A stretch of 33,192 bases of DNA. Origin: Lutibacter sp. (GTDB taxonomy: Bacteria; Bacteroidota; Bacteroidia; Flavobacteriales; Flavobacteriaceae). The notes under the pieces were generated by a model. The model did no database searches, had not been told where the DNA came from, and saw only the letters and a list, made by a program, of their open reading frames with translations. Below, one piece after another: positions 2 to 26,200 of the stretch. The stretch covers positions 1 through 33,192 of the forward strand of contig NZ_WTAR01000124.1 of the NCBI RefSeq assembly GCF_013139515.1. The letters are read 5' to 3'. Every line of letters starts with the position of its first letter. Position 1 is the first letter of the stretch. A program made the position numbers and the translations under genes.

Positions 2-247
2 TTAGAACCCGCAACTTTTGGAATTCCAATACTAATTGGGCCAAATTATCATAAATTTAATGAAGCTGTAGACTTGGTAAAACAAGAGGCATGTTTTACT
101 ATAAATAATTCTAAAAAATTATCCGTACTTTTAAAGAAATTATTTCAGTTAAAAGATTTCAGAAAAAAAGTAGGTGAAAATGCTTTAAAATATGTAATGG
201 ATAAAACTGGAGCTACTACTAAAATTTTATATTATTTAAAAAGATGA
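2..247 (+). CDS. waaA: 3-deoxy-D-manno-octulosonic acid (Kdo) transferase, C-terminal fragment
   Basis: This is the last 81 codons of a gene that begins left of the window. Kdo transferase adds Kdo from CMP-Kdo to the lipid A precursor at the inner membrane, an essential step in making the lipopolysaccharide core. The fragment starts with the GT-B glycosyltransferase signature LEPATFGIPILIGPNYHKF followed by NEAVDL, which matches the nucleotide-sugar-binding end of WaaA (EPA.FG.P...GPN..KF.EA). The rest is the closing helical part of that domain. The stop codon overlaps the start of the following Crp/Fnr gene as ATGA, so the two may be translationally coupled. The 5' end cannot be seen. The call rests on this C-terminal motif alone. 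Confidence 0.8.
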   Translation, partial: LEPATFGIPILIGPNYHKFNEAVDLVKQEACFTINNSKKLSVLLKKLFQLKDFRKKVGENALKYVMDKTGATTKILYYLKR

Positions 248-876
248 GAGAAAAATTAGAAAACTACTTTTCATTTGTATTTGAAAAAGAACTATTAGAT
301 GAAATTGAGCAAGTGGGTACCTATAAAAAACTTCGTGAGAACGAAATTTTAGTTGATTTAGGTGATAGAATGAAAGGTGTACCATTATTATTAGATGGAG
401 CAATTAAAATTGTTAGAGAAGATAAAAAAGGTGAAGAAATACTACTTTATTTTTTAGAAAGAGGTGATACCTGTGCTAGTTCATTTGCAAGCGCAATTTC
501 TAATGGTAAATGTGGAATTAGAGCCATCGCTGAAAAAGAATCGGAAATGATTTTTTTACCTACAGAAAAATTAGATGAATGGTTAGTGAAGTATAAAACA
601 TGGAGAAATTTTGTTATTGATAGTTATAATATTCGTCTAAATGAAATGATGGAAACTATTGATACGTTGGCTTTTATGAGGATGGATGAGCGTCTGTATA
701 AATACTTAACAGATAAGGCTCAAATAATGAGAGACACCTCATTAAACACAACGCATCAAGACATCGCATACGATTTGCACACATCAAGAGTTGTAATATC
801 TAGATTGTTAAAACAACTTGAAAATGAAGGTAAAATTAAGCTGAATAGAAATAGAATTGAAATTTTAGAATTTTAA
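244..876 (+). CDS. Crp/Fnr-family transcriptional regulator (first of two)
   Basis: This is a 210-residue regulator with an N-terminal cyclic-nucleotide-binding-type beta-roll (about residues 20-115), a dimerisation helix (about 120-150) and a C-terminal winged helix (about 150-210). The recognition-helix region is HTSRVVISRLLKQLENEG. It has no N-terminal cysteine cluster of the E. coli FNR type. Two cysteines, in GDTCASS and NGKCGI, lie inside the sensor domain. The ligand is unknown, and canonical cAMP-binding residues are not evident. The ATG overlaps the waaA stop. The gene sits 69 bases upstream of a YeeE/YedE pair whose promoter carries a Crp/Fnr-like palindrome, so it is a natural candidate to act there. 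Family assignment is firm; target and signal are inference. Confidence 0.9.
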   Translation: MREKLENYFSFVFEKELLDEIEQVGTYKKLRENEILVDLGDRMKGVPLLLDGAIKIVREDKKGEEILLYFLERGDTCASSFASAISNGKCGIRAIAEKESEMIFLPTEKLDEWLVKYKTWRNFVIDSYNIRLNEMMETIDTLAFMRMDERLYKYLTDKAQIMRDTSLNTTHQDIAYDLHTSRVVISRLLKQLENEGKIKLNRNRIEILEF

Positions 877-881
877 CACTA

Positions 882-897
882 TGTAACTTTTATTACA
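882..897. promoter_or_regulatory. Crp/Fnr-type operator TGTAA-N6-TTACA
   Basis: A perfect inverted repeat, TGTAA CTTTTA TTACA, lies between the first Crp/Fnr gene and the YeeE/YedE pair. Its half-sites and 6-base spacer have the shape expected of Crp/Fnr-family operators. Its centre (889.5) is 28.5 bases upstream of the first T of the TATTTTTG element at 918, which suits an activator bound beside the -33 region. The same spacing recurs upstream of the oxidoreductase operon. Binding itself is inferred. Confidence 0.7.
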
Positions 898-917
898 CTA
901 CAGCATAATTTAAATAA

Positions 918-925
918 TATTTTTG
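918..925 (+). promoter_or_regulatory. Promoter -7 element TATTTTTG for the YeeE/YedE pair
   Basis: TATTTTTG fits the Bacteroidota -7 consensus TAnnTTTG and lies 20 bases before the ATG at 946. No convincing TTTG -33 element is seen at the usual distance. A weak -33 region next to a perfect upstream operator is what an activator-dependent promoter would look like. Confidence 0.55.
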
Positions 926-945
926 AAAGACTAACTAATTAAATT

Positions 946-1503
946 ATGGAATATATAACTCAGCCTTGGGCCTGGTATGTTGCTGGCCCTGTTATTGCTT
1001 TTATCATGTTTTTGCTTTTTTATTTTGGTGAGCGCTTTGGTGTCTCATCAAACTTAGAAACCTTTTGTTCTATTGGTGGAGCAGGAAAATTCACAGATTA
1101 TTTTAAAATTGATTGGAAACAAAACTCTTGGAATTTAATTTTTGTAGCAGGTGCAATTGCGGGAGGCTTTATAGCTTCAAATTGGCTGTCTCCAAGTGAT
1201 GTTGTTGCATTAAACCCACAAACTATACAAGATTTATCTGACATTGGAATTGCAAATGCAGGAGCCACCTATTTACCCGATGAAATTTTTAGTATTGATA
1301 CCATGTTATCTGTAAAAGGATTTTTCGTGTTATTAATTGCAGGCCTTATGGTTGGTTTTGGGGCGCGTTGGGCAGGTGGTTGTACATCTGGCCATGCAAT
1401 TGTTGGGTTAAGTAATTTAGAAATTCCTTCACTAATTTCAGTTATTGGATTTTTTATAGGAGGATTAGTAATGACCTGGTTTATTTTACCACTAATATTT
1501 TAG
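946..1503 (+). CDS. YeeE/YedE (Sulf_transp) membrane protein, first half of a split pair
   Basis: This 185-residue integral membrane protein belongs to the YeeE/YedE family (Sulf_transp, PF04143), whose studied members import thiosulfate or related sulfur species through conserved cysteines. Hydrophobic segments lie near residues 11-28, 62-80, 123-142 and 160-183. The family motif GGCTSGHAIVGLS places Cys146 in the membrane. A second cysteine, Cys41, lies in SSNLETFCSIGG, which resembles the N-terminal motif of the family. Full-length YeeE proteins are about twice this long, so this protein probably works with the next gene, only 4 bases downstream, as a two-subunit transporter of the PmpA/PmpB kind. 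The nearby oxidoreductase suggests an oxidisable sulfur compound as substrate, but that is inference. Confidence 0.88.
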   Translation: MEYITQPWAWYVAGPVIAFIMFLLFYFGERFGVSSNLETFCSIGGAGKFTDYFKIDWKQNSWNLIFVAGAIAGGFIASNWLSPSDVVALNPQTIQDLSDIGIANAGATYLPDEIFSIDTMLSVKGFFVLLIAGLMVGFGARWAGGCTSGHAIVGLSNLEIPSLISVIGFFIGGLVMTWFILPLIF

Positions 1504-1507
1504 AAAG

Positions 1508-1921
1508 ATGAAGTATATAAAGTTTTTTTTAGTAGGTATTCTTTTTGGAATAGTAATGAGTAAAGCTGAAATAATTTCGTGGTTTAGAATATACGAAATG
1601 TTTAAATTTCAATCGTTTCATATGTATGGGATTATTGGTTCAGCAGTACTATTAGGAATGGTAAGCATGTATTTTTTCAGGAAAAACGTGGTGAAAACTT
1701 TTGAAGGCAATGAAATTCATGTTGCACCAAAAAAAAGAGGCTTATACCGTAACCTTTTAGGAGGAACTCTATTTGGATTAGGTTGGGCATTAGCAGGTGC
1801 TTGTCCTGGCCCTATGTTTGTTCTAGTAGGTAAAGGAGTAGTATCAATTCTAGTCGTAATCTTTGGCGCAACTTTAGGTGCTTTTTTATATGGATTGTTT
1901 AAAGATAAAATACCACATTAA
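1508..1921 (+). CDS. YeeE/YedE (Sulf_transp) membrane protein, second half of a split pair
   Basis: This 137-residue membrane protein has hydrophobic segments near residues 3-18, 38-56, 80-100 and 106-128. The signature GLGWALAGACPGPMFVLVG contains Cys99, the second-half counterpart of the GGCTSGH motif in the preceding gene. It starts 4 bases after its partner's stop, and together the two equal one full-length YeeE protein of about 320 residues. Splitting of YeeE into two small subunits is known in the PmpA/PmpB type. No rhodanese or TusA gene sits next to them, although a rhodanese-like domain occurs in the MoeB homologue farther on. Substrate and direction are not shown by the sequence. 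Confidence 0.88.
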   Translation: MKYIKFFLVGILFGIVMSKAEIISWFRIYEMFKFQSFHMYGIIGSAVLLGMVSMYFFRKNVVKTFEGNEIHVAPKKRGLYRNLLGGTLFGLGWALAGACPGPMFVLVGKGVVSILVVIFGATLGAFLYGLFKDKIPH

Positions 1922-1959: not shown

Positions 1960-2592
1960 ATGAAACTTAATGATATTGTTACAGCTAGTTTTTCGAAACT
2001 ATTTGAAGAAAATTTACTGCAAGAAATATGTAACAATGGGATTTTAAAATATGCCGAGCCCGATAAAATAATTTTAGAAATTAGAAGAGATATACAGTTT
2101 ATACCTTTAATTGTTTCAGGTATTGTAAAAGTTATGCGTCGTGATGGTGATGGAAATGGAATTTTCTTACATTATCTATCTAAAAATCAAACAAGTGCAA
2201 TAGCAATTTCATATGTGTTAGAGGGTGAAAAGAGTGAGATTAGGTTAAAGGCTCAAAGTAATATAACTTACATTGCAGTCCCTTCAAAAGTAGTAAATTC
2301 GTGGTTTTTAAAATACCAATCATGGAGGTCGTTTTATTTCAAGTTGAATCAGCAGCAAACCTCTTTGTTAATTCATAATATTAATGATATTGCCTTTACA
2401 AGTTTAGAGTATAGATTATTAAAATATTTAGAATATACTAGCCAAGTTAGTAATGATAGTACCATTTATAGTAAGCATTTTGATATTGCTCGTGATTTAA
2501 AGGTTTCAAGAGAAGCAGTATCGAGAATTTTAAAAAAGTTAGAAAAAGAAGACATAGTAACTTTAGGTAGAAATAAAATAACACTCAACTAG
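1960..2592 (+). CDS. Crp/Fnr-family transcriptional regulator (second of two)
   Basis: This second 210-residue regulator has the same architecture and exactly the same length as the one at 244: a beta-roll sensor (about 20-115), a connecting helix, and a C-terminal winged helix containing HFDIARDLKVSREAVSRILKK. Beyond the helix-turn-helix the two are only distantly alike, so they are probably old paralogues with different signals. This copy lacks the two sensor-domain cysteines of the first and has a single Cys near residue 24. Its TAG stop shares one base with the GTG start of moaA, which ties its translation to the Moco operon. It may control that operon, the YeeE pair or the oxidoreductase; the sequence does not say which. 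Confidence 0.9.
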   Translation: MKLNDIVTASFSKLFEENLLQEICNNGILKYAEPDKIILEIRRDIQFIPLIVSGIVKVMRRDGDGNGIFLHYLSKNQTSAIAISYVLEGEKSEIRLKAQSNITYIAVPSKVVNSWFLKYQSWRSFYFKLNQQQTSLLIHNINDIAFTSLEYRLLKYLEYTSQVSNDSTIYSKHFDIARDLKVSREAVSRILKKLEKEDIVTLGRNKITLN

Positions 2593-3578
2593 TGGAATTA
2601 ATAGATAAATTTGGAAGGAAGATTACCTATTTACGATTGGCAATTACAGACCGTTGTAATCTACGTTGTCAATATTGTATGCCAGCTCAAGGAATAGACA
2701 TTGTTGATAGGAAAGAGTTGCTTTCTTATAAAGAAATGTATCGTCTTACACGTGTTCTATCTGAATTAGGTGTAAATAAAGTGCGCTTAACTGGTGGAGA
2801 ACCTTTTGTACGTAAAGATTTTGTAAACTTTTTAGAATCACTTTCTTTTAATGATAAGTTAGATGAAATAAACATCACTACAAACGGCGCTTTAATTTCT
2901 AATTATATAGATAAGTTAGAAGCATTAAATATCAACGCTATTAATTTGAGTATTGATAGTTTGCAAAAAGATAAATTTGCCAAAATTACGCGTAGAGATG
3001 TATTTGAAAATGTTTACGATACACTTGAAAAATTAGAAGAAAGCAATTTAAAATTGAAATTAAATGTAGTAGTTCAGTCAGGTTTTAATACCGATGAAAT
3101 TATTGATTTTATTGAGCTTACAAAAAATAAACATATTGCAGTTCGTTTTATTGAAGAGATGCCTTTTAACGGAAAAGGACAACGAAACATTGAAGAAGAA
3201 TGGAACTTTACTAAAATTATTGCTCTTGTAAATGAACATTATTCAACGGTAGAAAAACTTCAAGATAAAAAATCTTCTACATCAAGAAATTTTAAAATTC
3301 CGAATTATAAAGGGACTTTTGGAATAATTCCAGCATTTACAAGAACTATTTGCAATGATTGTAATAGAATAAGAATCACTGCAACCGGTATGTTTAAAAA
3401 CTGTTTATTTGATGGAGGTGTTTTTAATGTAAGAGATTTTATGAGAGATGGTGCAAGTGATGATGAGTTGAAACAATTATTTATTGACACGGTTCATAAA
3501 AAACCAAAAAATGGTTTTGTTGCTGAAGCAGCTCGTGGAAATGATGTTTCAGAAAGCATGTCTACAATTGGCGGGTAA
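2592..3578 (+). CDS. moaA: GTP 3',8-cyclase MoaA (Moco biosynthesis)
   Basis: MoaA is the radical-SAM enzyme that converts GTP to 3',8-cyclo-7,8-dihydro-GTP, the first step of molybdenum cofactor synthesis in the cytoplasm. The 328-residue protein has the radical-SAM cluster Cys22-x3-Cys26-x2-Cys29 in TDRCNLRCQYCMP and the second, substrate-binding cluster at Cys254, Cys257 and Cys271. It also has the LTGGEP motif and the C-terminal double glycine (STIGG) needed for activity. Length is normal for the family. The start is GTG and overlaps the stop of the preceding regulator by one base, and MELIDKFGRKITYLRLAITDRC aligns well with other MoaA N-termini. It heads a run of eight same-strand genes. 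Confidence 0.97.
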   Translation: MELIDKFGRKITYLRLAITDRCNLRCQYCMPAQGIDIVDRKELLSYKEMYRLTRVLSELGVNKVRLTGGEPFVRKDFVNFLESLSFNDKLDEINITTNGALISNYIDKLEALNINAINLSIDSLQKDKFAKITRRDVFENVYDTLEKLEESNLKLKLNVVVQSGFNTDEIIDFIELTKNKHIAVRFIEEMPFNGKGQRNIEEEWNFTKIIALVNEHYSTVEKLQDKKSSTSRNFKIPNYKGTFGIIPAFTRTICNDCNRIRITATGMFKNCLFDGGVFNVRDFMRDGASDDELKQLFIDTVHKKPKNGFVAEAARGNDVSESMSTIGG

Positions 3579-4232
3579 ATGGGTAAAACACATATAAAAA
3601 TTTGTTGTATAAGTAGTGTTGAAGAAGCTAAATTGGCTATAAATTTGGGTGCATCAGCATTAGGTTTGGTAGGTTATATGCCAAGTGGTCCAGGAATTAT
3701 TAAAGATGAATTGATTGCTGAAATTGCAGCGTTTACACCAAAAAACATTGACACATTTTTATTAACTAGCGAAACCAAGGTTTCAAACATTATAGCACAT
3801 CATTCAAAAGTTAATACAACAACCATTCAGTTGGTTGATAATCTTACTGAAGGAACACATCAACAAATCAAATTAGCACTTCCAGACGTAAAGCTTGTTC
3901 AAGTTTTACATGTTTTAAATGAAAACTCAATTAATGAAGCTATACAAGTTTCAAAATATGTAGATACTATTTTATTAGATAGTGGAAATCCAAATTTAAC
4001 AACTAAAGAGTTGGGTGGAACAGGAAGAGTTCATAATTGGGAAATTAGTAAAACTATAGTTGAACGTGTAAATATTCCCGTATTTTTAGCTGGTGGGTTA
4101 AATTCTGAAAATGTGCTAAAAGCAATTCAAAAAGTGAATCCATATGGGTTAGATTTGTGTAGTGGTGTAAGAACGAACGGAAATTTAGATAAAACAAAGC
4201 TATCAGCATTTTTTAAATCGATTAAGAACTAA
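3579..4232 (+). CDS. TrpF-like (phosphoribosylanthranilate isomerase family) protein in the Moco operon
   Basis: This 217-residue TIM barrel has the N-terminal motif IKICCIS, matching the KICG catalytic motif of TrpF with the general-base Cys at position 9. LLDSGNP carries the general-acid Asp134. The phosphate-binding loops ELGGTGR and LAGGLNSENV are present, as is the closing DLCSGVRTNG. So it is a TrpF-fold protein with both catalytic residues. The usual S-P/K-R segment that binds the anthranilate carboxylate reads PSGPG here (residues 35-39), so the Arg is missing. No other tryptophan gene is nearby. It abuts the moaA stop and is followed 11 bases later by moeA. Either it is a displaced TrpF or it acts on another ribosyl-phosphate-type substrate. 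The fold is certain; the reaction is not. Confidence 0.75.
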   Translation: MGKTHIKICCISSVEEAKLAINLGASALGLVGYMPSGPGIIKDELIAEIAAFTPKNIDTFLLTSETKVSNIIAHHSKVNTTTIQLVDNLTEGTHQQIKLALPDVKLVQVLHVLNENSINEAIQVSKYVDTILLDSGNPNLTTKELGGTGRVHNWEISKTIVERVNIPVFLAGGLNSENVLKAIQKVNPYGLDLCSGVRTNGNLDKTKLSAFFKSIKN

Positions 4233-4243
4233 TTAAATAAGTT

Positions 4244-5440
4244 ATGAGTTTAATTACAGCAAATGAAGCATTAGAGATAATTTTAAAAAGTTCTGAAACT
4301 TTTAGAGTTGAAGAAGTTAACTTTTTAAAATCTAACGGAAGAATTTTAAAAGAAGACATTGTAGCCGATCGTGATTTTCCGCCTTTTAATCGTGTAAGTA
4401 TGGATGGAATTGCAATCTCATCTGAAGCATTTAATAACGGGCAGCGAAAATTTAAAATTGAAGGAATACAACCTGCAGGAAGTGAGCAATTAACAATGCA
4501 AAACCCTTTAAATTGTATTGAAGCTATGACGGGTGCTATTTTACCAAATAATACCGATGCTGTTATTCAATATGAATTATTAACCATAGAAGATGGTTTT
4601 GCTACTATAAATTTAGAAGCAGTTAAAGAACTTCAAAATGTTCATTTAAAAGGATTAGATAGAAAACAAGGTGCTATTTTAATCCCTAAAAACACATTAA
4701 TATCTGCTGCTGAAATAGGTGTGTTTGCAACGGTAGGAAAAAGTACTGTTATGGTTGCAAGACAACCAAAAGTTATGGTTATTTCTACGGGGAATGAATT
4801 GGTTGGTGTTTCTGAAACTCCTGAAGATTACCAAATTAGAAGAAGTAATGTTTTTACATTAGTTTCTTTGTTAGAAAAAATAAATATTAAAGCTGAAACT
4901 GCACATATAACAGATGATAAAGACAAGTTATTAAGTAAAATCAATTCGTTTTTAAATGATTTTGATGTGTTGTTGTTTAGCGGAGCTGTCTCAAAAGGAA
5001 AATTTGATTTTATTCCTGAAGTGTTGGATGAATTAGGAGTTAAAAAATTATTTCATAAAGTAAAACAACGTCCAGGCAAACCATTTTGGTTTGGAAAAAA
5101 AGGAAATAAAACAATTTTTGCTTTCCCTGGAAATCCAGTGTCAACATTTGCAAGTTGTTTAAAATATTTTTATCCATGGTATTATAAATCGATTGGAATA
5201 AATTTTGAAAATAAAAATAAAGCAATTTTAGCTGAAGATTACTTCTTTAAGCCAGGCTTAACCTACTTTTTACAAGTAAAAATCACTAAAGAAGAGGGTG
5301 AAATACTTGCAACTCCAATTACTGGAAGAGGTTCAGCAGATTTAGTAAACTTGGTAGATTCTGATGCTTTTTTGGAATTACCAGATGATAGAACTAATTT
5401 CACCAAAGGAGAAGTATTTCCTTTAATAACATATAGATAA
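4244..5440 (+). CDS. moeA: Molybdopterin molybdenumtransferase MoeA
   Basis: MoeA inserts molybdate into adenylylated molybdopterin to give active Moco. The 398-residue protein begins with the MoeA N-terminal domain and has the signature DFPPFNRVSMDGIA (about residues 45-58). TGAILPNNTDAVI follows, then the MogA-like central domain with STGNEL and LFSGAVSKGKFDF, and PGKPFWFG and FAFPGNPVSTF toward the end. The usual SGGVSVGDYD motif is slightly altered to SGAVSKGKFD. Length is normal. It sits between the TrpF-like gene and moaC. No MogA/MoaB adenylyltransferase, which makes its substrate, is encoded in this window. Confidence 0.95.
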   Translation: MSLITANEALEIILKSSETFRVEEVNFLKSNGRILKEDIVADRDFPPFNRVSMDGIAISSEAFNNGQRKFKIEGIQPAGSEQLTMQNPLNCIEAMTGAILPNNTDAVIQYELLTIEDGFATINLEAVKELQNVHLKGLDRKQGAILIPKNTLISAAEIGVFATVGKSTVMVARQPKVMVISTGNELVGVSETPEDYQIRRSNVFTLVSLLEKINIKAETAHITDDKDKLLSKINSFLNDFDVLLFSGAVSKGKFDFIPEVLDELGVKKLFHKVKQRPGKPFWFGKKGNKTIFAFPGNPVSTFASCLKYFYPWYYKSIGINFENKNKAILAEDYFFKPGLTYFLQVKITKEEGEILATPITGRGSADLVNLVDSDAFLELPDDRTNFTKGEVFPLITYR

Positions 5441-5446
5441 AATATT

Positions 5447-5472
5447 GTCATTCTGAACTTGATTTAGAATCT
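5447..5472. repeat. REP-like hairpin remnant between moeA and moaC
   Basis: The 39-base gap contains GTCATTCTGAACTTGATTTA followed by GAATCT. ATTCTGAA and TTTAGAAT pair as an 8-base stem (one G-U) around a 5-base loop. From memory, sequences of the form GTCATTCTGAAC...CAGAATCT are common dispersed hairpins in flavobacterial genomes, so this looks like a copy or decayed copy. It lies only 7 bases before the moaC start codon. Confidence 0.5.
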
Positions 5473-5479
5473 TTCGCTT

Positions 5480-5959
5480 ATGGAAAAAGAATTCACTCAT
5501 ATAGGAGAAAAAAACACTCCAAAAATGGTAAACGTTGGTGATAAAAAAGTCACCAAACTAAAAGCAACTGCTAAAGCCACTATGTTTTTAGGGACAGAAA
5601 TTATTTCACATTTCGAAAATAAAGAATTAACCACTAAAAAAGGGCCGGTATTTCAAACAGCAATTATTGCAGGAATTCAAGCAGTTAAAAAAACTTCAGA
5701 ATTAATACCAATGTGTCACCCATTAATAATTAATGGGGTTGATGTTGCTATTGAAGTTATAGATAAGGAACATATTGAAATTTTATGCACGGTTGCTATT
5801 GAAGGGAAAACAGGTGTTGAAATGGAGGCGTTAACAGGAGCAAATATTGCAGCATTAACGGTGTATGATATGTGTAAATCTATTTCTCAAAAAATGGTGA
5901 TTAAAGAAGTTAAATTAGTTGAGAAATCAGGAGGTAAAAGCGATATTAAAAATGGGTAA
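5480..5959 (+). CDS. moaC: Cyclic pyranopterin monophosphate synthase MoaC
   Basis: MoaC turns the MoaA product, 3',8-cyclo-dihydro-GTP, into cyclic pyranopterin monophosphate. The 159-residue protein has the motifs PMCHPL (Cys79-His80), EGKTGVEMEALTG and TVYDMCKSI. In the last, Asp130 and Lys133 correspond to E. coli MoaC Asp128 and Lys131. Length is typical. It follows moeA after a short gap holding a hairpin repeat, and its end overlaps the mobA-fusion start by 8 bases, so translational coupling is likely. Nothing in the sequence suggests loss of function. Confidence 0.96.
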   Translation: MEKEFTHIGEKNTPKMVNVGDKKVTKLKATAKATMFLGTEIISHFENKELTTKKGPVFQTAIIAGIQAVKKTSELIPMCHPLIINGVDVAIEVIDKEHIEILCTVAIEGKTGVEMEALTGANIAALTVYDMCKSISQKMVIKEVKLVEKSGGKSDIKNG

Positions 5960-7064
5960 ACATCAAAAACATGCAAAGTTAAAATTAAGAGATAATGATA
6001 ATTTTGCTCCAAATGAAATAGCTTTAGTTGGAACAAAATGTGATGTCATTTCAAATTTAGTTACCAAAGTATCTAAAAACTTAACAAATTATAAGTTAGC
6101 TTATTTTGATGCTTCGCATAGTAAAGGTGTTGAGTTAAACTCAGTTCAAAATTTCACATTTCATCATAAAGGTTCTGCAGAAATTTCAGTAAATTCTGAA
6201 GTAAATAAATTCAATCAGCGTGTGCAATTTTCACAGTTTGATTATGTGTTTATTAATGGAAATCATTACCAAGGAGCAAAACAAATTTTAATTTTAGACA
6301 ATGATAAAGAAGCTTCAGTTTTAAAGAGATTGGAAGAGCTAAATAATATTCAATTTGTTATAAAATTAACAGAAGATACTAAGTTTTTTGACTTTTTAGT
6401 TGAGAAAAACCCCCAAATTAAAAACTTACAATGTTATAATATCAATGAAATAGATAAAATTTCAAAACACGTTGAAAATTTAATCAAAGAAAAAACTGCA
6501 TCAATTCAAGGGTTGGTATTAGCCGGTGGAAAAAGTGTTAGAATGGGAACCGATAAAGGAGCACTACAGTTTTACGGTAAAAATCAACGTGATGTTGCTA
6601 TTGAGTTATTAGAAAAAAACAATTTAAAAACGTATTTATCCGTTAGGTCAGCTCAAGAAATTGAGATAGAAAACAAAATTACCGACAAGTTTGTTGGACT
6701 TGGACCGTTTGGAGCTATTTGTTCGGCTTTTCAAGAAAACCCAGATGTTGCTTGGCTAGTTATTGCAACCGATTTGCCATTTGTAAATGATGAGGTTATT
6801 CAATTATTGCTTAAACATAGAAACCCTTCAAAAGCTGCTACAACCATTAAGGGAAAAGACAAACAATTTCCAGAACCACTAATTACCATTTGGGAACCTA
6901 AAAGCTATACGTTATTATTAAATTATTTAGCACAAGGATATTCTTGTCCGAGAAAAGTTCTAATAAATTCTGATGTTGAAATTGTTGAAGTTGATGATAA
7001 TTTCATAAGAAACATTAATACTCCTGAAGAATTTAAAGCTGCACATAAAGAAATAAATGACTAA
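5952..7064 (+). CDS. mobA: MobA-type molybdenum cofactor nucleotidyltransferase fused to a degenerate MobB-like domain
   Basis: The second half (about residues 185-370) is a MobA nucleotidyltransferase, with GLVLAGGKSVRMGTDKGAL at about 187-205 and a later ATDLPF motif. MobA transfers GMP (or a related nucleotide) to Mo-molybdopterin. The first 180 residues begin IALVGTKCDVISNLV and continue into YKLAYFDASHSKG and FDYVFINGNHYQ. This resembles the layout of MobB (P-loop, then a D..H motif, then an EG/NG motif), but the GKT/S of the P-loop is gone. ATG at 5952 was chosen because MGKHQKHAKLKLRD looks like a natural start and overlaps the moaC stop by 8 bases. An in-frame TTG at 5919 would extend it by 11 residues. 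The MobA call is firm; the MobB ancestry is tentative. Confidence 0.85.
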   Translation: MGKHQKHAKLKLRDNDNFAPNEIALVGTKCDVISNLVTKVSKNLTNYKLAYFDASHSKGVELNSVQNFTFHHKGSAEISVNSEVNKFNQRVQFSQFDYVFINGNHYQGAKQILILDNDKEASVLKRLEELNNIQFVIKLTEDTKFFDFLVEKNPQIKNLQCYNINEIDKISKHVENLIKEKTASIQGLVLAGGKSVRMGTDKGALQFYGKNQRDVAIELLEKNNLKTYLSVRSAQEIEIENKITDKFVGLGPFGAICSAFQENPDVAWLVIATDLPFVNDEVIQLLLKHRNPSKAATTIKGKDKQFPEPLITIWEPKSYTLLLNYLAQGYSCPRKVLINSDVEIVEVDDNFIRNINTPEEFKAAHKEIND

Positions 7065-12593: not shown

Positions 12594-12609
12594 TGTGAAG
12601 TTCATCACA
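12594..12609. promoter_or_regulatory. Crp/Fnr-type operator TGTGA-N6-TCACA
   Basis: TGTGA AGTTCA TCACA is a perfect inverted repeat identical in its half-sites to the classical CRP/HcpR-type consensus. Its centre (12601.5) lies 28.5 bases upstream of the first T of TAAATTTG, exactly the spacing seen before the YeeE pair, and close to -40 from the likely start site. This fits activation from a class II position. Which regulator binds is not known; two Crp/Fnr proteins are encoded at 244 and 1960. Confidence 0.75.
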
Positions 12610-12629: not shown

Positions 12630-12637
12630 TAAATTTG
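12630..12637 (+). promoter_or_regulatory. Promoter -7 element TAAATTTG for the oxidoreductase operon
   Basis: TAAATTTG is a perfect TAnnTTTG match, 27 bases before the ATG at 12665. No TTTG -33 element stands at 17-20 bases upstream, in keeping with dependence on an activator at the adjacent palindrome. Confidence 0.6.
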
Positions 12638-12664: not shown

Positions 12665-14281
12665 ATGAAGTACGGTTTTATTATTGATAATCGAAAATGT
12701 ATTGGTTGTCATGCTTGTACAACAGCTTGTAAATCAGAACATGATGTAGCTGTTGGTGTTAACAGAACATATGTTAAACAAGTAGAAAAAGGAGAATTTC
12801 CAGATACAAGAAGAATTTTTTCAGTAATGCGATGTAATCATTGTACAGATGCTCCTTGTGTAGAAATTTGCCCGGTAGAAGCATTGTATACACGTGAAGA
12901 TGGTATTGTAGATTTTGATAACAACCGTTGTATTGGTTGTAAATCTTGTATGCAAGCTTGTCCATACGACGCGTTGTATATTGATCCTGATACGAATACA
13001 GCAGCAAAATGTAATTATTGTGCGCATAGAGTTGATGTAGGTAGGGAGCCTGCTTGTGTTTCTGTTTGTCCAGAACATGCAATTATTGCGGGTGATATGC
13101 AGAATCCAACTACGGAAATTTCACAATTATTAGCGCGTCAAGCTGTTAAAGTTCGTAAACCAGAAAAAGGCACAAATCCAAACTTATTTTATATAGATGG
13201 TGATGATGCTTCTTTAGTACCTGAAGCAACAGATAAATCAGGTCCAGGATTATGGAATTCTCAGGCAAGAGGTGTAGGGCATTTTGCAAAAGCAGCTGAA
13301 AAAATGATGCATACGAATGATGATGTAGATTTATTGCAAATGTCAATAAATAACGAAATTGAAGCAGCATATCAGAAAAAAGAAAGTAAAAATCCAAATT
13401 ATATTGATGTGTTAACTGGTAAAGCTCGAAGAGTATATGATACACCTGATAAAGGTATACTTTGGGGATGGGAAGTTTCTGCATATGTATTTACAAAAGC
13501 AATTGCTGCAGGAGCATTCTTAATTCCATTTTTAGCAATTATGCTAGGTTATGAAGTTTCTACAACTGCTAAATTATGGTCAGCAGGAATTTCATTGACA
13601 TTTTTAGCATTAACAGGATTATTCTTGGTAATGGACTTGGATAGACCAGATCGTTTTTTAAACGTTTTGTTACGTCCACAATGGAATTCTTGGTTAGTAA
13701 AAGGCGGTTATACAATTACTATTTTCGGGTTGTTAGTAACAGTTTGGGGAGCAATGACATTTTTTGAAATTCAAATAGGAGAAACTATTTTGTTATGGGT
13801 AACTGCTATTTTTGCAGTGTTATTAGCTATTTATACAGCATTCTTATTTGCACAAGCAAAAGGACGTGATTTTTGGCAAAGTCCAACATTACCATTGCAT
13901 ATGTTAGTGCACAGTGTTATGGCAGGTGTTTCAATTTTTATCATAGCAGCCTTAATATTTGGAAGTGAAGATTGGATGAGTATTCTAAAAAACACGATGA
14001 TAATTGCATTGGTAGTAAATTTATTTACACTAATAACTGAATTAACAATTACGCATCCAACAACAGCAGCAAAAACTGTCGTAAAAATGATTACCAAGGG
14101 ACGATATAAAAATCTATTTTGGATAGTTACTGTGTTAATAGGGAATATAATTCCATTGATATTATTATTCTTCGGAACAGGAGAAGTAGCAGCTGTTATT
14201 TCAGGAGTATTTGTTTTAATTGGAATTTTGAGCACAGAGAAAATTTGGGTTGAAGCTCCACAAAGAATTCCATTAGCTTAA
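12665..14281 (+). CDS. Fused 4[4Fe-4S] ferredoxin / NrfD membrane anchor subunit of a molybdopterin oxidoreductase (SoeBC-like)
   Basis: This 538-residue protein joins two subunits that are usually separate. Residues 1-170 are an electron-transfer ferredoxin with four cysteine clusters, beginning CIGCHACTTAC (Cys12, 15, 18, 22), then CNHCTDAPCVEIC, CIGCKSCMQAC and CNYC...CVSVC. After a linker, residues 255-530 form an NrfD/PsrC-type quinone-interacting membrane domain with about eight hydrophobic segments, including WGWEVSAYVFTKAIAAGAF and a conserved MDLDRPDRF. It would carry electrons between the catalytic subunit 17 bases downstream and the quinone pool. No signal peptide precedes the ferredoxin, so it should face the cytoplasm, as in SoeABC sulfite dehydrogenase. 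Polysulfide or thiosulfate reductase relatives remain possible. Confidence 0.85.
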   Translation: MKYGFIIDNRKCIGCHACTTACKSEHDVAVGVNRTYVKQVEKGEFPDTRRIFSVMRCNHCTDAPCVEICPVEALYTREDGIVDFDNNRCIGCKSCMQACPYDALYIDPDTNTAAKCNYCAHRVDVGREPACVSVCPEHAIIAGDMQNPTTEISQLLARQAVKVRKPEKGTNPNLFYIDGDDASLVPEATDKSGPGLWNSQARGVGHFAKAAEKMMHTNDDVDLLQMSINNEIEAAYQKKESKNPNYIDVLTGKARRVYDTPDKGILWGWEVSAYVFTKAIAAGAFLIPFLAIMLGYEVSTTAKLWSAGISLTFLALTGLFLVMDLDRPDRFLNVLLRPQWNSWLVKGGYTITIFGLLVTVWGAMTFFEIQIGETILLWVTAIFAVLLAIYTAFLFAQAKGRDFWQSPTLPLHMLVHSVMAGVSIFIIAALIFGSEDWMSILKNTMIIALVVNLFTLITELTITHPTTAAKTVVKMITKGRYKNLFWIVTVLIGNIIPLILLFFGTGEVAAVISGVFVLIGILSTEKIWVEAPQRIPLA

Positions 14282-14298
14282 TTTAAAATAAAGAAATT

Positions 14299-17202
14299 AT
14301 GGGTTATAAAAAACCATCGTTTATAGAAAATATAGCAGAAAAATTAGGAATTATACCAAATCTGCACAAAGAAGGTTATCAAGAATTTGATGGCGACATG
14401 CGTCAATTTTCTGATGAAGAGGTTGCTCAAATGTATGAGAACTTTCCGCCACCCGAAAAATGGGATAATTGGGAAGAATACAATCCAAAAGTATGGCCTA
14501 AAAAAGAGAACAAAACATATCAAATAATACCTACTACTTGTTTTAACTGTGAAAGTGCTTGTGGTTTGACAGCTTTTATTGATAAGGAAACTCAAGAAGT
14601 AAAAAAGTTTGAAGGAAATCCATATCATCCAGGAAGTAGAGGCAGAAACTGCGCAAAAGGACCTGCATCAATTAATCAAGTAACAGATCCAGATAGGATT
14701 TTATTTCCTCTAAAAAGGAAAGGAAAACGTGGAGATGGAGAATGGGAACGTGTTTCTTGGGATGACGCATTAGATACCATTGCTGCTCGTATTAGAAAAG
14801 CAATACTTGAAGATCGTCATAATGAAATAGCTTACCATGTTGGAAGGCCAGGAAATGAAAAATTCATGAACTGGATTTTACAAGGTTGGGGAATTGATGG
14901 TCATAATTCACACACAAATATCTGCTCTTCAGGAGCTCGTTTTGGATATAATTTATGGTATGGTTATGATAGACCATCACCAGATCACGCTGAAGCTAAA
15001 TTTATTCTATTAATATCTGCACACTTAGAATCTGGTCATTATTTCAATCCGCATGCACAACGTATTATTGAAGGTAAAATGAAAGGCGCAAAATTGGCCA
15101 CCATGGATCCTCGTTTATCAAATACGGCTAGTATGTCAGATTACTGGTTACCATCATACCCAGGAACTGAAGCGGCTGTTTTACTAGCAATGGCTTTAAT
15201 AATTTTAGAAGAAGGATTATACAACAGAGATTATTTAGAGAATTGGACTAACTGGAGAGAATATTTACAAGCGCGTCACAGTGATAAAGAAATCACTTTT
15301 GAAAATTATATTGCTGCAATGATTGACGAGTATAAGGAATTTACTCCAGAATATGCTGAAAAAGAATCAGGTGTAAAAGCTGATATGATTATTGAGATCG
15401 CACATAAGATCGGTGAAGCAGGAGAACGTTTTGCATCTCATAACTGGCGTGCTGCAGGAGCTTCAAACCTAGGTGGTTGGGCAGTTGCACGTTGTTTGCA
15501 TTTCTTAACTGTTTTAACAGGAGCAGTTGGTGCTAAAGGAGGAACATCTCCAAACTCTTGGAATAAATTTAAGCCAACACAACCAAATCCGCCAGCACCT
15601 CAAAAGAAATGGAATGAATTACATTTCCCTAAAGAATATCCGTTAGCATTTTTTGAAATGAGTCAGTTATTACCACATTTCTTAAAAGAAGGAAGAGGTA
15701 AAATGGACGTTTATTTTTCAAGAGTGTTTAATCCAGTTTGGACATATCCTGATGGATTTACATGGATGGAAATGTTTTCTGATGAAACTAAATTTGGTTT
15801 ACACGCAGCGTTAACTCCAACTTGGAACGAAACAGCATTTTATGCAGATTTTGTGTTGCCAATGGGATTAGCATCAGAACGACACGATTTAAATAGCTAT
15901 GCTACACACGGTGGAACTTGGGTTGCTTTCCGTCAGCCAGTATTAAGAGAAGCAGCTCGTAGAAATGGAAAACCAGTTAACTTAACATATGAAGCAAATC
16001 CAGGTGAAGTTTGGGAAGAAGATGAATTCTTTATTGAATTATCTTGGAGAATTGACCCTGATGGAAGCATGGGAATCAGAAAAACATTTGAATCTCCATA
16101 TAGACCAGGTAAAAAAATTACGATAGATGAATATTACCAATATATTTTTGAAAGAATTAAAGGGTTAAACGAAACTGCAAAAGCAGATGGATTTACAGGG
16201 CAATTTGCGGCATTGGAATACATGAAAAAGTATGGCGCTTACGAAATTGAAAAAGGTGAATCCTATAAAATGAATGAAAATCAACTTTCTGAAGAGCAAT
16301 TGAAAGGTACTAAAGTAGACCCTATAAATGATGTAATTTCAAAAGATGGAAAAGGGATTGGTGTTATGATAAATGGAAAACCTTGTGTAGGCTTCCCAAC
16401 ACCATCTCGTAAAAATGAATTCTATTCACAAACTATGGTAGATTGGAAATGGCCAGAATATGCAACACCAACGTATATAAAAAGTCATATTCATAATGAT
16501 GTGTTGGATAAATCAAAAGGTGAATACGTATTGGTTCCAACATTTAGGTTGCCAACATTAATTCACTCACGTTCGGGTAATGCAAAATGGCTTGTAGAAA
16601 TATCGAATAGAAATCCAATTTGGATGCACCCAGATGATGCAAAAAAATGGGATTTCCAAACAGGTGATTTGGTGAAATTAAATACAGATATTGGTTATTT
16701 TATAGATAAAGTTTGGGTAACGCAAAGTATGAAACCAGGCGTTGTAGCTTGCTCACATCATATTGGACGTTGGAGAAGACCACAAGATAAAATAGGAAAC
16801 CGTTGGGCAACTAATACGGTAAATATTGAAGGAGATGGAAAAGGCGCTTGGAAAATGAATACAATTTCAGGTATAAAACCATTCGAATCTAGCGATAAAG
16901 ATTCTAAACGTATTTTTTGGAAAGATGGTGGTGTACACCAAAATATTACACATGCAGTACATCCAGATCCAATTAGTGGAATGCATACTTGGCATCAACG
17001 TGTTAGAATTGAGAAACCGGGTAAAGATGAAAAGTATGGAGATATTTTTGTAGACACCAATAAATCACATGAGATTTATAAAGAATGGTTAGCCATGACA
17101 CGTCCAGCTCCTGGACCGAATGGAGAGAGAAGACCACTTTGGTTTAACAGAGCTTTTAAACCAGACGAGTCAGTGTATTATATTGACAAGAAAGAAGAGT
17201 AA
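14299..17202 (+). CDS. Molybdopterin oxidoreductase catalytic subunit, SoeA/PsrA-like
   Basis: This 967-residue catalytic subunit belongs to the DMSO-reductase superfamily. It has an N-terminal [4Fe-4S] motif, Cys81-x2-Cys84-x3-Cys88 and Cys118 in GRNCAKG. Cys209 in TNICSSGARFG is the probable Mo ligand, and a C-terminal molybdopterin-dinucleotide-binding domain lies at about 760-960. There is no twin-arginine signal at the N-terminus, which is instead a long charged leader (residues 1-75), so the enzyme should be cytoplasmic. Length, lack of Tat signal and pairing with a ferredoxin-NrfD partner fit the SoeA sulfite dehydrogenase subunit; the neighbouring YeeE pair supports a sulfur substrate. 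Polysulfide or tetrathionate chemistry cannot be ruled out. It is followed directly by a terminator. Confidence 0.82.
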   Translation: MGYKKPSFIENIAEKLGIIPNLHKEGYQEFDGDMRQFSDEEVAQMYENFPPPEKWDNWEEYNPKVWPKKENKTYQIIPTTCFNCESACGLTAFIDKETQEVKKFEGNPYHPGSRGRNCAKGPASINQVTDPDRILFPLKRKGKRGDGEWERVSWDDALDTIAARIRKAILEDRHNEIAYHVGRPGNEKFMNWILQGWGIDGHNSHTNICSSGARFGYNLWYGYDRPSPDHAEAKFILLISAHLESGHYFNPHAQRIIEGKMKGAKLATMDPRLSNTASMSDYWLPSYPGTEAAVLLAMALIILEEGLYNRDYLENWTNWREYLQARHSDKEITFENYIAAMIDEYKEFTPEYAEKESGVKADMIIEIAHKIGEAGERFASHNWRAAGASNLGGWAVARCLHFLTVLTGAVGAKGGTSPNSWNKFKPTQPNPPAPQKKWNELHFPKEYPLAFFEMSQLLPHFLKEGRGKMDVYFSRVFNPVWTYPDGFTWMEMFSDETKFGLHAALTPTWNETAFYADFVLPMGLASERHDLNSYATHGGTWVAFRQPVLREAARRNGKPVNLTYEANPGEVWEEDEFFIELSWRIDPDGSMGIRKTFESPYRPGKKITIDEYYQYIFERIKGLNETAKADGFTGQFAALEYMKKYGAYEIEKGESYKMNENQLSEEQLKGTKVDPINDVISKDGKGIGVMINGKPCVGFPTPSRKNEFYSQTMVDWKWPEYATPTYIKSHIHNDVLDKSKGEYVLVPTFRLPTLIHSRSGNAKWLVEISNRNPIWMHPDDAKKWDFQTGDLVKLNTDIGYFIDKVWVTQSMKPGVVACSHHIGRWRRPQDKIGNRWATNTVNIEGDGKGAWKMNTISGIKPFESSDKDSKRIFWKDGGVHQNITHAVHPDPISGMHTWHQRVRIEKPGKDEKYGDIFVDTNKSHEIYKEWLAMTRPAPGPNGERRPLWFNRAFKPDESVYYIDKKEE

Positions 17203-23200: not shown

Positions 23201-26200
23201 TATTCAGTTTTGGTTGATGGATCCTTACGATCACTATTCAATTACAAATGAAGAAGGGTTACAACCAGGAGTTGATCCAACAAATATTTCAAATCAGGTT
23301 GGTGATTTATACTTCAATCTTGGTAATATTTCTGAAGACGTTTTAAAAGACGGTAGAAAAATGTATGAAAACGGTTTGCCAGAAAATGATTTAGATACTA
23401 ATTTTGACTCAACAATTTGGGGGAAAATACCGACAAGTCAATCGCTTTTATATGCATTTAGTGATAGTGATAGTGAACGTTTAGCACAAGATATTGGTTT
23501 AGATGGTATTAATGATGATGAAGAACTTCAAAAATTTGGAACAGGGTTTGGTTTAGACCCAGCAAATGATAACTATTCTTATTTTAGAAGTTCTGAATAT
23601 GATAGCAATGATGCATCAGTTTTAACACGTTATAAAAGATATAATAATACGCAAGGTAACTCACCTACCAATAATTTATCTACAGAAAGTTATCCAACTT
23701 CAGCAACAACATTTCCTGATACAGAAGATATTGATAAGGATCAAACCATGAACTCGGTTGAAAGTTATTATCAATACAAAGTATCATTAAATAAAAATGA
23801 TTTAGTTGTTGGTCAAAATAATATTGTTGATGAGAAAAAAGTAACCGTACAACTTGAAGATGGTAGTGAAAAAGAATTTAGATGGTTACAATTTAGAATT
23901 CAAGTAGGAACACCTGATGAGGTTGTGAATGATATTACAGGTTTTAATTCAATTCGTTTTATGCGAATATTTTTAACCAAATTTAAAATGCCAGTAGTAT
24001 TGCGTTTTGGTGAATTAGAATTAGTTCGTGGAGATTGGAGACGTTATACAAAAACATTAGATGAAGCAATAACACCACCTCAAGATTTAACAAACCCTCA
24101 ATTACAAAATTTTGAAGTTGGTGTTGTTAACATTCAAGAAAATGAAGGTAGAAACCCAATTCCTTATATATTACCACCAGGAATTGAGCGAGAAGTGTTA
24201 AGAGGTAGCACTACGTTACAACAACAAAATGAGCAATCAGTTTCGTTAAAAGTTACCAATCTAGAACCTGATGATACAAGGGCAATATTTAAAAATGTAA
24301 GAGTAGATTTAAGGATGTACAAGCACTTAAAATTGTTTTTACATGCTGAAGGAGTTCAAACACAATCACAAGTTCAAGATGGTGAAGTGCAAGCAATTGT
24401 TAGGGTTGGTAGCGATTTAAATGATAACTATTATCAAATTGAAAAATTATTAACAATTTCTGATTATGGAGCTTCAACCCCACTTGATATTTGGCCTGAA
24501 GAAAATAATTTAGATGCTTTTTTAGAAGATTTAGGAAAACTTAAACTGCAGCGATTTGAAGATGGAATAGCTCCAAATGAATTGTATCCAGCAATAAATG
24601 GCTCAATAGAAGATTTGGTAGTAAGGGTAAAAGGAAACCCAAACTTATCTAATATTAAAACCATTATGTTGGGAGTTAAAAATGTTTCAAATACCAATCA
24701 AAGTACAGAAGTTTGGTTTAATGAAATGCGTGTTTCTGAATTTGATAATGAAGGAGGTTGGGCAGCAGTTGTAAGTGCTGATGCTAATTTTGCTGATTTT
24801 GCTGATGTTTCTATGACAGGAAGAATGGAAACTCAGGGTTTTGGTGGTATTGAGCAACGTGTAAATGAAAGAAGTCAAGAAGATACTAAATTATACGATA
24901 TTGTTACCAATGTAAATGTAGGGCAGCTTTTACCTAAAAATTGGGGAATTAAATTACCGTTAAATTATAGTATTTCAGAAGAATTTAAAGATCCAAAATA
25001 CGATCCACAGTACCAAGATGTATTATTTGAAGATGCTGAAAGTATAAATCCAAACAGTAGTAGCGCTAGAGATTATACAAAGCGAAGAAGTTTTAGTTTA
25101 ATTAATGTTAGAAAAGACAGAAACCCAACTTCAACCAAAAAACAACGTTTTTATAGTGTTGAAAATCTATCAGTTTCATACGCGTATAATGAAACATTTC
25201 ATAAAGATTATAACGTTCAAAGATATGTAGATCAAAATGTAAGAGCTTCAGCAAATTATAATTATAGTTTTGAACCAAAAAGTATTGAGCCTTTTAAAAA
25301 CTTAGAATCACTAAGTGGTAAATATTTAAGACTGATAAAAGATATTAATTTTAATTTATTGCCATCAACAATTTCAATAAACTCAAATATAATTAGAAGT
25401 TATAACGAGCAATTATCAAGAAGTTTAATAGAAGGTTTGCCAGAACTTCCAACGTTAAAACAACGTCATTTTATGTTTGATTGGGATTATAGTATTGGCT
25501 ACAACTTAACCAAATCTTTACAGTTTAATTTTAAAGCAGCAAACCATTATATTTATGATGAGTTTGAATCTTCAGAAGATATTCAGTTAATGGATAATTT
25601 CTTTAGCATTGGAAGACCAGATCATTATCACCAAACATTAAGTGGTACTTACAAATTACCTTTAGATAAAATACCATATTTAAATTTTATAAAAGCTAAT
25701 TATGCGTACACTGCAGATTTTGATTGGCAAGCATCATCACAATCGTATGTTAATAAAGTTGGAAATGTAATTCAGAATGCAAATACACACACTATTGGAA
25801 CGGATGTAGATTTTAAGAAATTTTATAAAACTATAGGGTTAGAAAAGTTATTTAGTAAAAAAAGTGCTTCATCAAAACAATCAGGCGCTAAAAAAACGGT
25901 AAATACTAGAAGTTCAATCACTAAAAAGAAAAAAACAGTTGGTGGTAAAATTGGACAAGGATTTTATGATTTACTAACTTCAGTAAAAAAAGCACGTGTA
26001 AATTATTCTGAAAACAATGGTACTTTTTTACCAGGATATGTTCCTGAGATTGGATTTTTAGGACGTGATAATTTTAGTGGAAGCGCAGCACCAACATTTG
26101 GATTTGTTTTTGGAAGTCAAATAGATATTAGACAAAGAGCGGTAGAAAACGGTTGGTTGTTATCACGTGATTCATCTGATCCGTTGGATGTTTATTATAA

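Follow-up and report, generated by a model that had tools for sequence, protein, structure and literature searches.

We suggest that the inverted repeat at positions 882-897 of the window is best interpreted as an activator site, of class II type, that belongs to a sulfur regulon. The window is the whole 33,192-nucleotide stretch of Lutibacter sp. DNA that was analysed, contig C78 of a metagenome bin (157 contigs, 90% complete; genome label G000). The regulon would comprise genes for YeeE/YedE transporters, a Psr/Soe-type molybdenum oxidoreductase, SulP permeases, a persulfide-dioxygenase-like protein, rhodaneses and an SQR-like protein. In the reading that we prefer, to which we give a probability of roughly 0.68, the Crp/Fnr regulator Crp1 would drive yeeE and crp2 through a TGTAA box in class II fashion and its paralogue Crp2 would read TGTGA boxes, with a Val or Glu residue of the recognition helix discriminating between the two. 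The features of the window that enter the argument are the following.

244-876, forward strand: crp1, Crp/Fnr regulator of 210 aa (Pfam cNMP_binding and HTH_Crp_2; recognition helix H-T-S-R-V-V-I-S-R; Cys77, Cys90)
882-897, forward strand: A-type operator TGTAACTTTTATTACA, centre 889.5, 5 bases past the crp1 stop and 48 bases ahead of yeeE1; kept before yeeE in relatives
918-925, forward strand: -7 promoter element TATTTTTG (TAnnTTTG), 28.5 bases from the A-type operator centre
946-1503, forward strand: yeeE1, YeeE/YedE half-transporter (Sulf_transp)
1508-1921, forward strand: yeeE2, second YeeE/YedE half (DUF6691 / Sulf_transp)
1960-2592, forward strand: crp2, Crp/Fnr regulator of 210 aa (HTH_Crp_2; recognition helix K-V-S-R-E-A-V-S-R)
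2592-7064, forward strand: moaA, moeA, moaC and mobA-like genes (molybdenum cofactor) with a PRAI-family gene between, by profile matches
12594-12609, forward strand: G-type operator TGTGAAGTTCATCACA, centre 12601.5, before the FeS-NrfD gene
12630-12637, forward strand: -7 promoter element TAAATTTG, 28.5 bases from the G-type operator centre
12665-14281, forward strand: fused FeS (Fer4)-NrfD subunit (Pfam NrfD, Fer4_11)
14299-17202, forward strand: molybdopterin oxidoreductase catalytic subunit, Psr/Soe-like (Pfam Molybdopterin)
23924-23939, forward strand: third match to TGTRA-N6-TYACA, inside a 2343-aa ORF

The coordinates and the 28.5-base spacing between TGTAA-N6-TTACA and TAnnTTTG given in the preliminary description are right, and the second box that it pointed out 11.7 kb away has the identical spacing. 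Its "perfect palindromes" are perfect inverted repeats in the 5-base half-sites, but not in the six inner bases. The third box has no TAnnTTTG at the operator distance on the forward strand and, since it also sits inside a 2343-aa ORF, is probably a chance match. The flavobacterial TAnnTTTG element spans -12 to -5, according to the available part of PMC9723704; the operator centre is therefore predicted near -40.5 (or near -41.5 at a spacing of 29.5), which would be class II geometry.

The window has three matches to TGTRA-N6-TYACA where 0.36 would be expected, and none of 100 shuffles reached three. Across the genome, the box by itself shows an enrichment of just about twofold (44 places versus 23 for the reversed pattern), while the box followed by TAnnTTTG 18-22 bases downstream was detected six times, versus 0 for the reversed pattern. 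The spaced box-promoter composite is non-random, although bare boxes are common. Contig C156 accounts for two of the six composites; on it, 19 genes of the island recur in unchanged order with 64-98% protein identity, as far as malic enzyme. A true duplication of the island was considered and set aside, a co-binned relative being likelier given this identity range in a bin of 157 contigs; C156 probably holds the relative's copy, and its two composites are thus not independent. Downstream of the A-form composite at C16:35352 (L253, box at 4354) no ORF of at least 90 aa was found on the same strand in the stretch read. Across 38 Lutibacter genomes the A form with promoter (GTAAC-N4-GTTAC) was counted 83 times versus 5 for the reversed pattern, and the G form with promoter (GTGA-N6-TCAC) 82 times versus 2.

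The yeeE promoter was compared in 34 readable upstream regions (33 genomes and the C156 copy), with G014 left out for its contig edge and G004 and G006 for having no yeeE match. A full box was detected in 27 of the 34, one more region has 7 of the 8 core positions and six have none; of the 27, 24 have TAnnTTT at exactly 28.5 bases. Conservation lies in the half-sites, and the inner four bases vary. The regions of G024 and G060, read beyond the 34, have no box. Upstream of FeS-NrfD, GTRA-N6-TYAC at 28.5 bases was present in all 31 readable regions (19 and 12, in two batches), with the form G/G in 20, hybrid in 11 and A/A in none. The preliminary description is supported in taking these for Crp/Fnr-type boxes, and their fixed distance to the promoter is kept in relatives.

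The yeeE box is absent in five of six genomes without the oxidoreductase versus three of the 30 regions that have it (Fisher p = 8e-4, uncorrected for shared descent). The exception that has the box without the oxidoreductase is G016 (62% complete), and the box is absent in G012, G026 and G028 despite the presence of crp1 and the oxidoreductase. A rule by which the genomes lacking the yeeE box are those lacking Crp2 was rejected, and a missing oxidoreductase is the better fit, because G009 and G024 keep Crp2 yet have no box. Among 33 further loci, mostly from more distant relatives, the composite precedes yeeE in six and is absent there in the other 27. In five of these loci (L153, L154, L155, L157, L160) a crp1 relative stands beside yeeE; in all five its helix is R-V-V-x-S-R, and yeeE is preceded by TGTAAC with the promoter. 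The sixth composite before yeeE is from Arenibacter (L156), with no crp1 match in the locus. L153 and L157 show the compact row crp1-yeeE1-yeeE2-FeS/NrfD-Mo subunit with no crp2 or moaA match between, and the position of the FeS-NrfD and Mo subunits directly after yeeE2 ties the transporter to the oxidoreductase.

Both YeeE/YedE halves match PF04143 (Sulf_transp) above cut-off, which places them in the family. The crp2 gene follows yeeE2 after a 38-base gap and overlaps moaA by one base; it is probably cotranscribed with yeeE1-yeeE2 and moaA. The best solved match of the oxidoreductase catalytic subunit is 2vpw, deposited as thiosulfate reductase, and the enzyme may be either a reductase of sulfur compounds or, Soe-like, an oxidase of sulfite. 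By eye, the FeS-NrfD and Mo subunits (12665-17202) have no N-terminal export signal, and a cytoplasmic Soe-like sulfite oxidase would for this reason fit better than a periplasmic Psr.

The preliminary description had the boxes flank one gene island, but they are found beyond it as well: in the genus, other recurrent box sites precede sulfur genes too, among them a second sulfide-oxidation cluster on contig C14 and a rhodanese gene. The box targets on C14 are two SulP permeases, an MBL-plus-rhodanese protein of the persulfide-dioxygenase (PDO) type, a rhodanese lipoprotein and an SQR-like protein that scores 255 bits on the type III SQR model against a cut-off of 525; the names persulfide dioxygenase and SQRa come from domain make-up and our own reading, with no curated model behind them. 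In 14 genomes an A-form box is followed, some 100-125 bases on, by the start of a rhodanese-domain match (Pfam-checked in one). Both box forms are present within one sulfide-oxidation cluster.

Crp1 belongs to the Crp/Fnr family by PF00027 and PF13545, both above cut-off. Its predicted model (pLDDT 82.6) has, among the 50 structure matches listed, Z scores of 13.8-16.0 over 124-206 residues with rmsd of 2.1-14.5. The PDB matches include NtcA, and the best is 3dv8, which has R-E where Crp1 has R-V; the likeness of Crp1 to NtcA is thus confined to the R-V residues. Crp2 is placed in the family by PF13545 above cut-off together with a predicted N-terminal domain that resembles Crp/Fnr structures (top match 2gau, Z 15.7, rmsd 2.5 over 136 residues; the comparison covers mainly residues 1-147), and PF00027 (cNMP_binding) was not reported for it at the limit used. 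The recognition helix reads R-V-x-x-S-R in all 34 Crp1 sequences extracted and R-E-x-x-S-R in all 28 of Crp2. Because these are the helix residues of NtcA (R-V) and CRP (R-E), the predicted targets are GTAAC for Crp1 and GTGAT for Crp2. Cys77 of Crp1 is invariant in 21 of 21 aligned sequences, five outgroup ones included; Cys90 was discarded as a sensor cysteine, being present in 34/34 Lutibacter Crp1 sequences but replaced by Ser in the five outgroup ones.

We compared the box forms with the presence of Crp2. An orthologue of crp2 was not found in G004, G014, G019, G020 and G060, where the best matches are paralogues of 32-34% identity or none; the lack in G014 is soft because the bin is 87% complete, and G015 and G035 were scored as carrying Crp2 on contig-edge fragments of 33 and 47 residues. 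Counted per genome and not corrected for descent, as are all the box-form counts, all 28 readable genomes with Crp2 have G/G at SulP and none of the four readable ones without it does; these four show A/A twice, A/G once and, in one, an A half-site followed by a broken one (two of 34 SulP1 rows, G006 and G010, were partial and left out). The SulP gene of G020 is just 34% identical to SulP1, so its row is weak; this genome has no Crp2, yet it has hybrid boxes with one G half-site. The SQRb box is G/G in 15 of 15, all in genomes with Crp2, with TAnnTTT at the distance in ten; these are the 15 of 34 counted, since 17 had no match in the fetched stretch and two matched at just 27-28%. The rhodanese-lipoprotein box is A/A in all 18 readable genomes, two of them without Crp2 (18 of 34 counted; nine partial, four absent, three without a recognised box). 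The PDO boxes (25 of 34 counted, nine without a recognised box) are hybrid in eight of 22 genomes with Crp2, and the G/G rows of G012, G026 and G029 have no TAnnTTT at the distance. Summed over composites, the five genomes without crp2 have two G-form and eight A-form sites and the 33 with crp2 have 80 and 75; the two G-form sites without Crp2 are those of G019 and G060. The lineages without Crp2 are few, G019 and G060 are sisters and the rooting is by midpoint; the pattern may go back to only one or two events.

A single clade of 11 genomes has GTGAT-N4-ATCAC before yeeE, with the Crp1 helix unchanged in 11/11 and the Crp2 helix unchanged in the seven read. The yeeE target is accordingly not tied to Crp1, as G boxes stand there with the Crp1 helix unaltered. 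The view, already put forward in the preliminary description, that the G/A difference separates the targets of the two Crp/Fnr paralogues is supported, not proven: the helices and the SulP boxes agree with it, and this clade and the hybrid A/G boxes argue against a rigid form of it. The hybrid boxes suggest a dual input or a relaxed reading.

These last observations are where a single regulator comes in, either Crp1 or Crp2 reading both forms, with the A/G base tuning affinity or the order of induction. The yeeE promoter itself is A-boxed in most species read and G-boxed in one clade, FeS-NrfD and PDO often have hybrid boxes, and A and G forms co-occur in one sulfide-oxidation cluster, all of which a single reader would accommodate. 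We consider it unlikely, given that G/G SulP boxes were seen only with Crp2 and that, in the sequences read, the helices differ at the very residue expected to read this base, a residue that is invariant within each paralogue.

Several further Crp/Fnr proteins were detected. A third Crp/Fnr gene, on contig C69 (L251:3513-4187), has the helix T-A-R-E-V-I-S-R and is immediately followed by GTGACTACAGTCAC with TAATTTTG; sites like this one adjoin weak Crp matches in G009, G015, G017 and G018. An Fnr-like protein on C128 has the helix T-E-S-A-I-R, without the leading Arg. G019 and G060 (L318, L319) carry a crp1-like paralogue with the helix R-V-V-V-S-R and a G-D-T-C motif, and the matches to crp2 of 31-36% identity in other Lutibacter genomes may be relatives of this paralogue. 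By its R-E helix, the Crp of C69 could read G boxes too.

It is quite improbable that one of these proteins reads one box class while Crp1 and Crp2 act elsewhere. All three are Crp/Fnr proteins, the R-E helix of the C69 Crp goes with a box right after its own gene and the crp1-like paralogue has an R-V-V helix; against this, G013 and G021 have no C69-type match yet carry G boxes, no crp1-like paralogue was found in the present 90%-complete bin, which has A boxes, and the C128 helix misses the leading Arg. Repressor sites or vestigial boxes are very improbable: six of the 34 readable yeeE promoters do lack a full or near-full box, but a centre predicted near -40.5 would leave the -7 element uncovered and take the place of the -33 element, the spacing is held at 28.5 bases, and loss of the yeeE box tracks loss of the oxidoreductase.

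In the preferred reading, with Crp1 on TGTAA boxes and Crp2 on TGTGA boxes, a Crp1 dimer would bind the two TGTAA half-sites at 882-897, with their centre at about -40.5 from the transcription start. As a class II activator it would recruit RNA polymerase to transcribe yeeE1-yeeE2-crp2, probably along with the molybdenum-cofactor genes after them. Crp2 made from that transcript would in turn recognise the TGTGA boxes of the FeS-NrfD/Mo oxidoreductase and, elsewhere in the genome, those of SulP and SQR-like genes. The discriminating residue would be at the second base-contacting position of the recognition helix, Val183 in Crp1 and Glu185 in Crp2. The pairing of paralogue and box, the binding, the activation, the operon and the cascade are what we infer from the sequences compared. 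As a guess, Cys77 of Crp1, a candidate thiol sensor, would respond to sulfane sulfur or to redox changes.

A fuller two-tier version of this scheme seems possible, though doubtful. Crp1 would sense sulfane sulfur through Cys77 and control yeeE, crp2 and the cofactor genes by TGTAA, Crp2 would control the oxidoreductase, SulP and SQR-like genes by TGTGA, and hybrid boxes would take both inputs, perhaps through a Crp1/Crp2 heterodimer. Where a G box stands at yeeE and crp2 lies behind yeeE2, crp2 would be under its own product, so the change of one base per half-site in the one clade would have put yeeE-crp2 under Crp2 in a self-sustaining loop.

If the preferred reading is true, the Crp1/Crp2 boxes would provide a readable operator code for the sulfide-oxidation pathway and a natural case of paralogous activators separated by a single base and a single residue. 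Genomes exist on either side of the switch, and the division of targets by duplicated regulators, an old question, would become testable in cultured species such as L. agarilyticus, L. litoralis, L. maritimus, L. oceani, L. flavus and L. citreus.

In the part of the open-licence literature available to us, we found no description of a Crp/Fnr regulator of sqr/pdo-type genes in Bacteroidota and met no report of sulfur genes under class II control by Crp/Fnr paralogues that a one-base code tells apart. BigR, FisR and CstR are persulfide-responsive and control sqr, pdo, rhodanese or YeeE-type genes; together with SqrR they belong to regulator families other than Crp/Fnr. The candidates here share sulfide-oxidation genes (sqr, pdo, rhodanese or YeeE-type) as targets with SqrR, as far as the accessible part of its literature goes, and differ from SqrR, BigR, FisR and CstR in being predicted Crp/Fnr activators. 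Transcripts of sqr and pdo rose in Bacteroidota, among other groups, after sulfide addition to sediment (available sections of PMC12345210), and a paper on the sulfide response of Acinetobacter names Crp 16 times in the text accessible (PMC7315123).

NtcA binds GTA-N8-TAC and activates in class II fashion from about -41.5, responds to 2-oxoglutarate and controls nitrogen genes, according to the accessible portion of PMC3898017. Crp1 shares with it the Crp/Fnr fold and R-V at two base-contacting helix positions (three NtcA alignments), and the A-type box contains GTA-N8-TAC at what is predicted to be a class II distance. Crp1 differs in scoring 42 bits on the NtcA model against a cut-off of 244.95, in coming from Bacteroidota (NtcA from cyanobacteria) and in adjoining sulfur genes. 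The E. coli CRP box is TGTGA-N6-TCACA, the same as the G form here, and Val in place of Glu181 in CRP reportedly moves the preference to an A-containing half-site. The base contacts of CRP are Arg180, Glu181 and Arg185 (available part of PMC12531629; helix positions also in that of PMC2633013), which the R-E-x-x-S-R of Crp2 matches, whereas on the CRP model Crp1 and Crp2 score 42.5 and 26.7 bits, both below the cut-off of 266. Taken together, class II control by Crp/Fnr proteins is known, and its use with a one-base paralogue code at sulfur genes, as suggested here, would be new.
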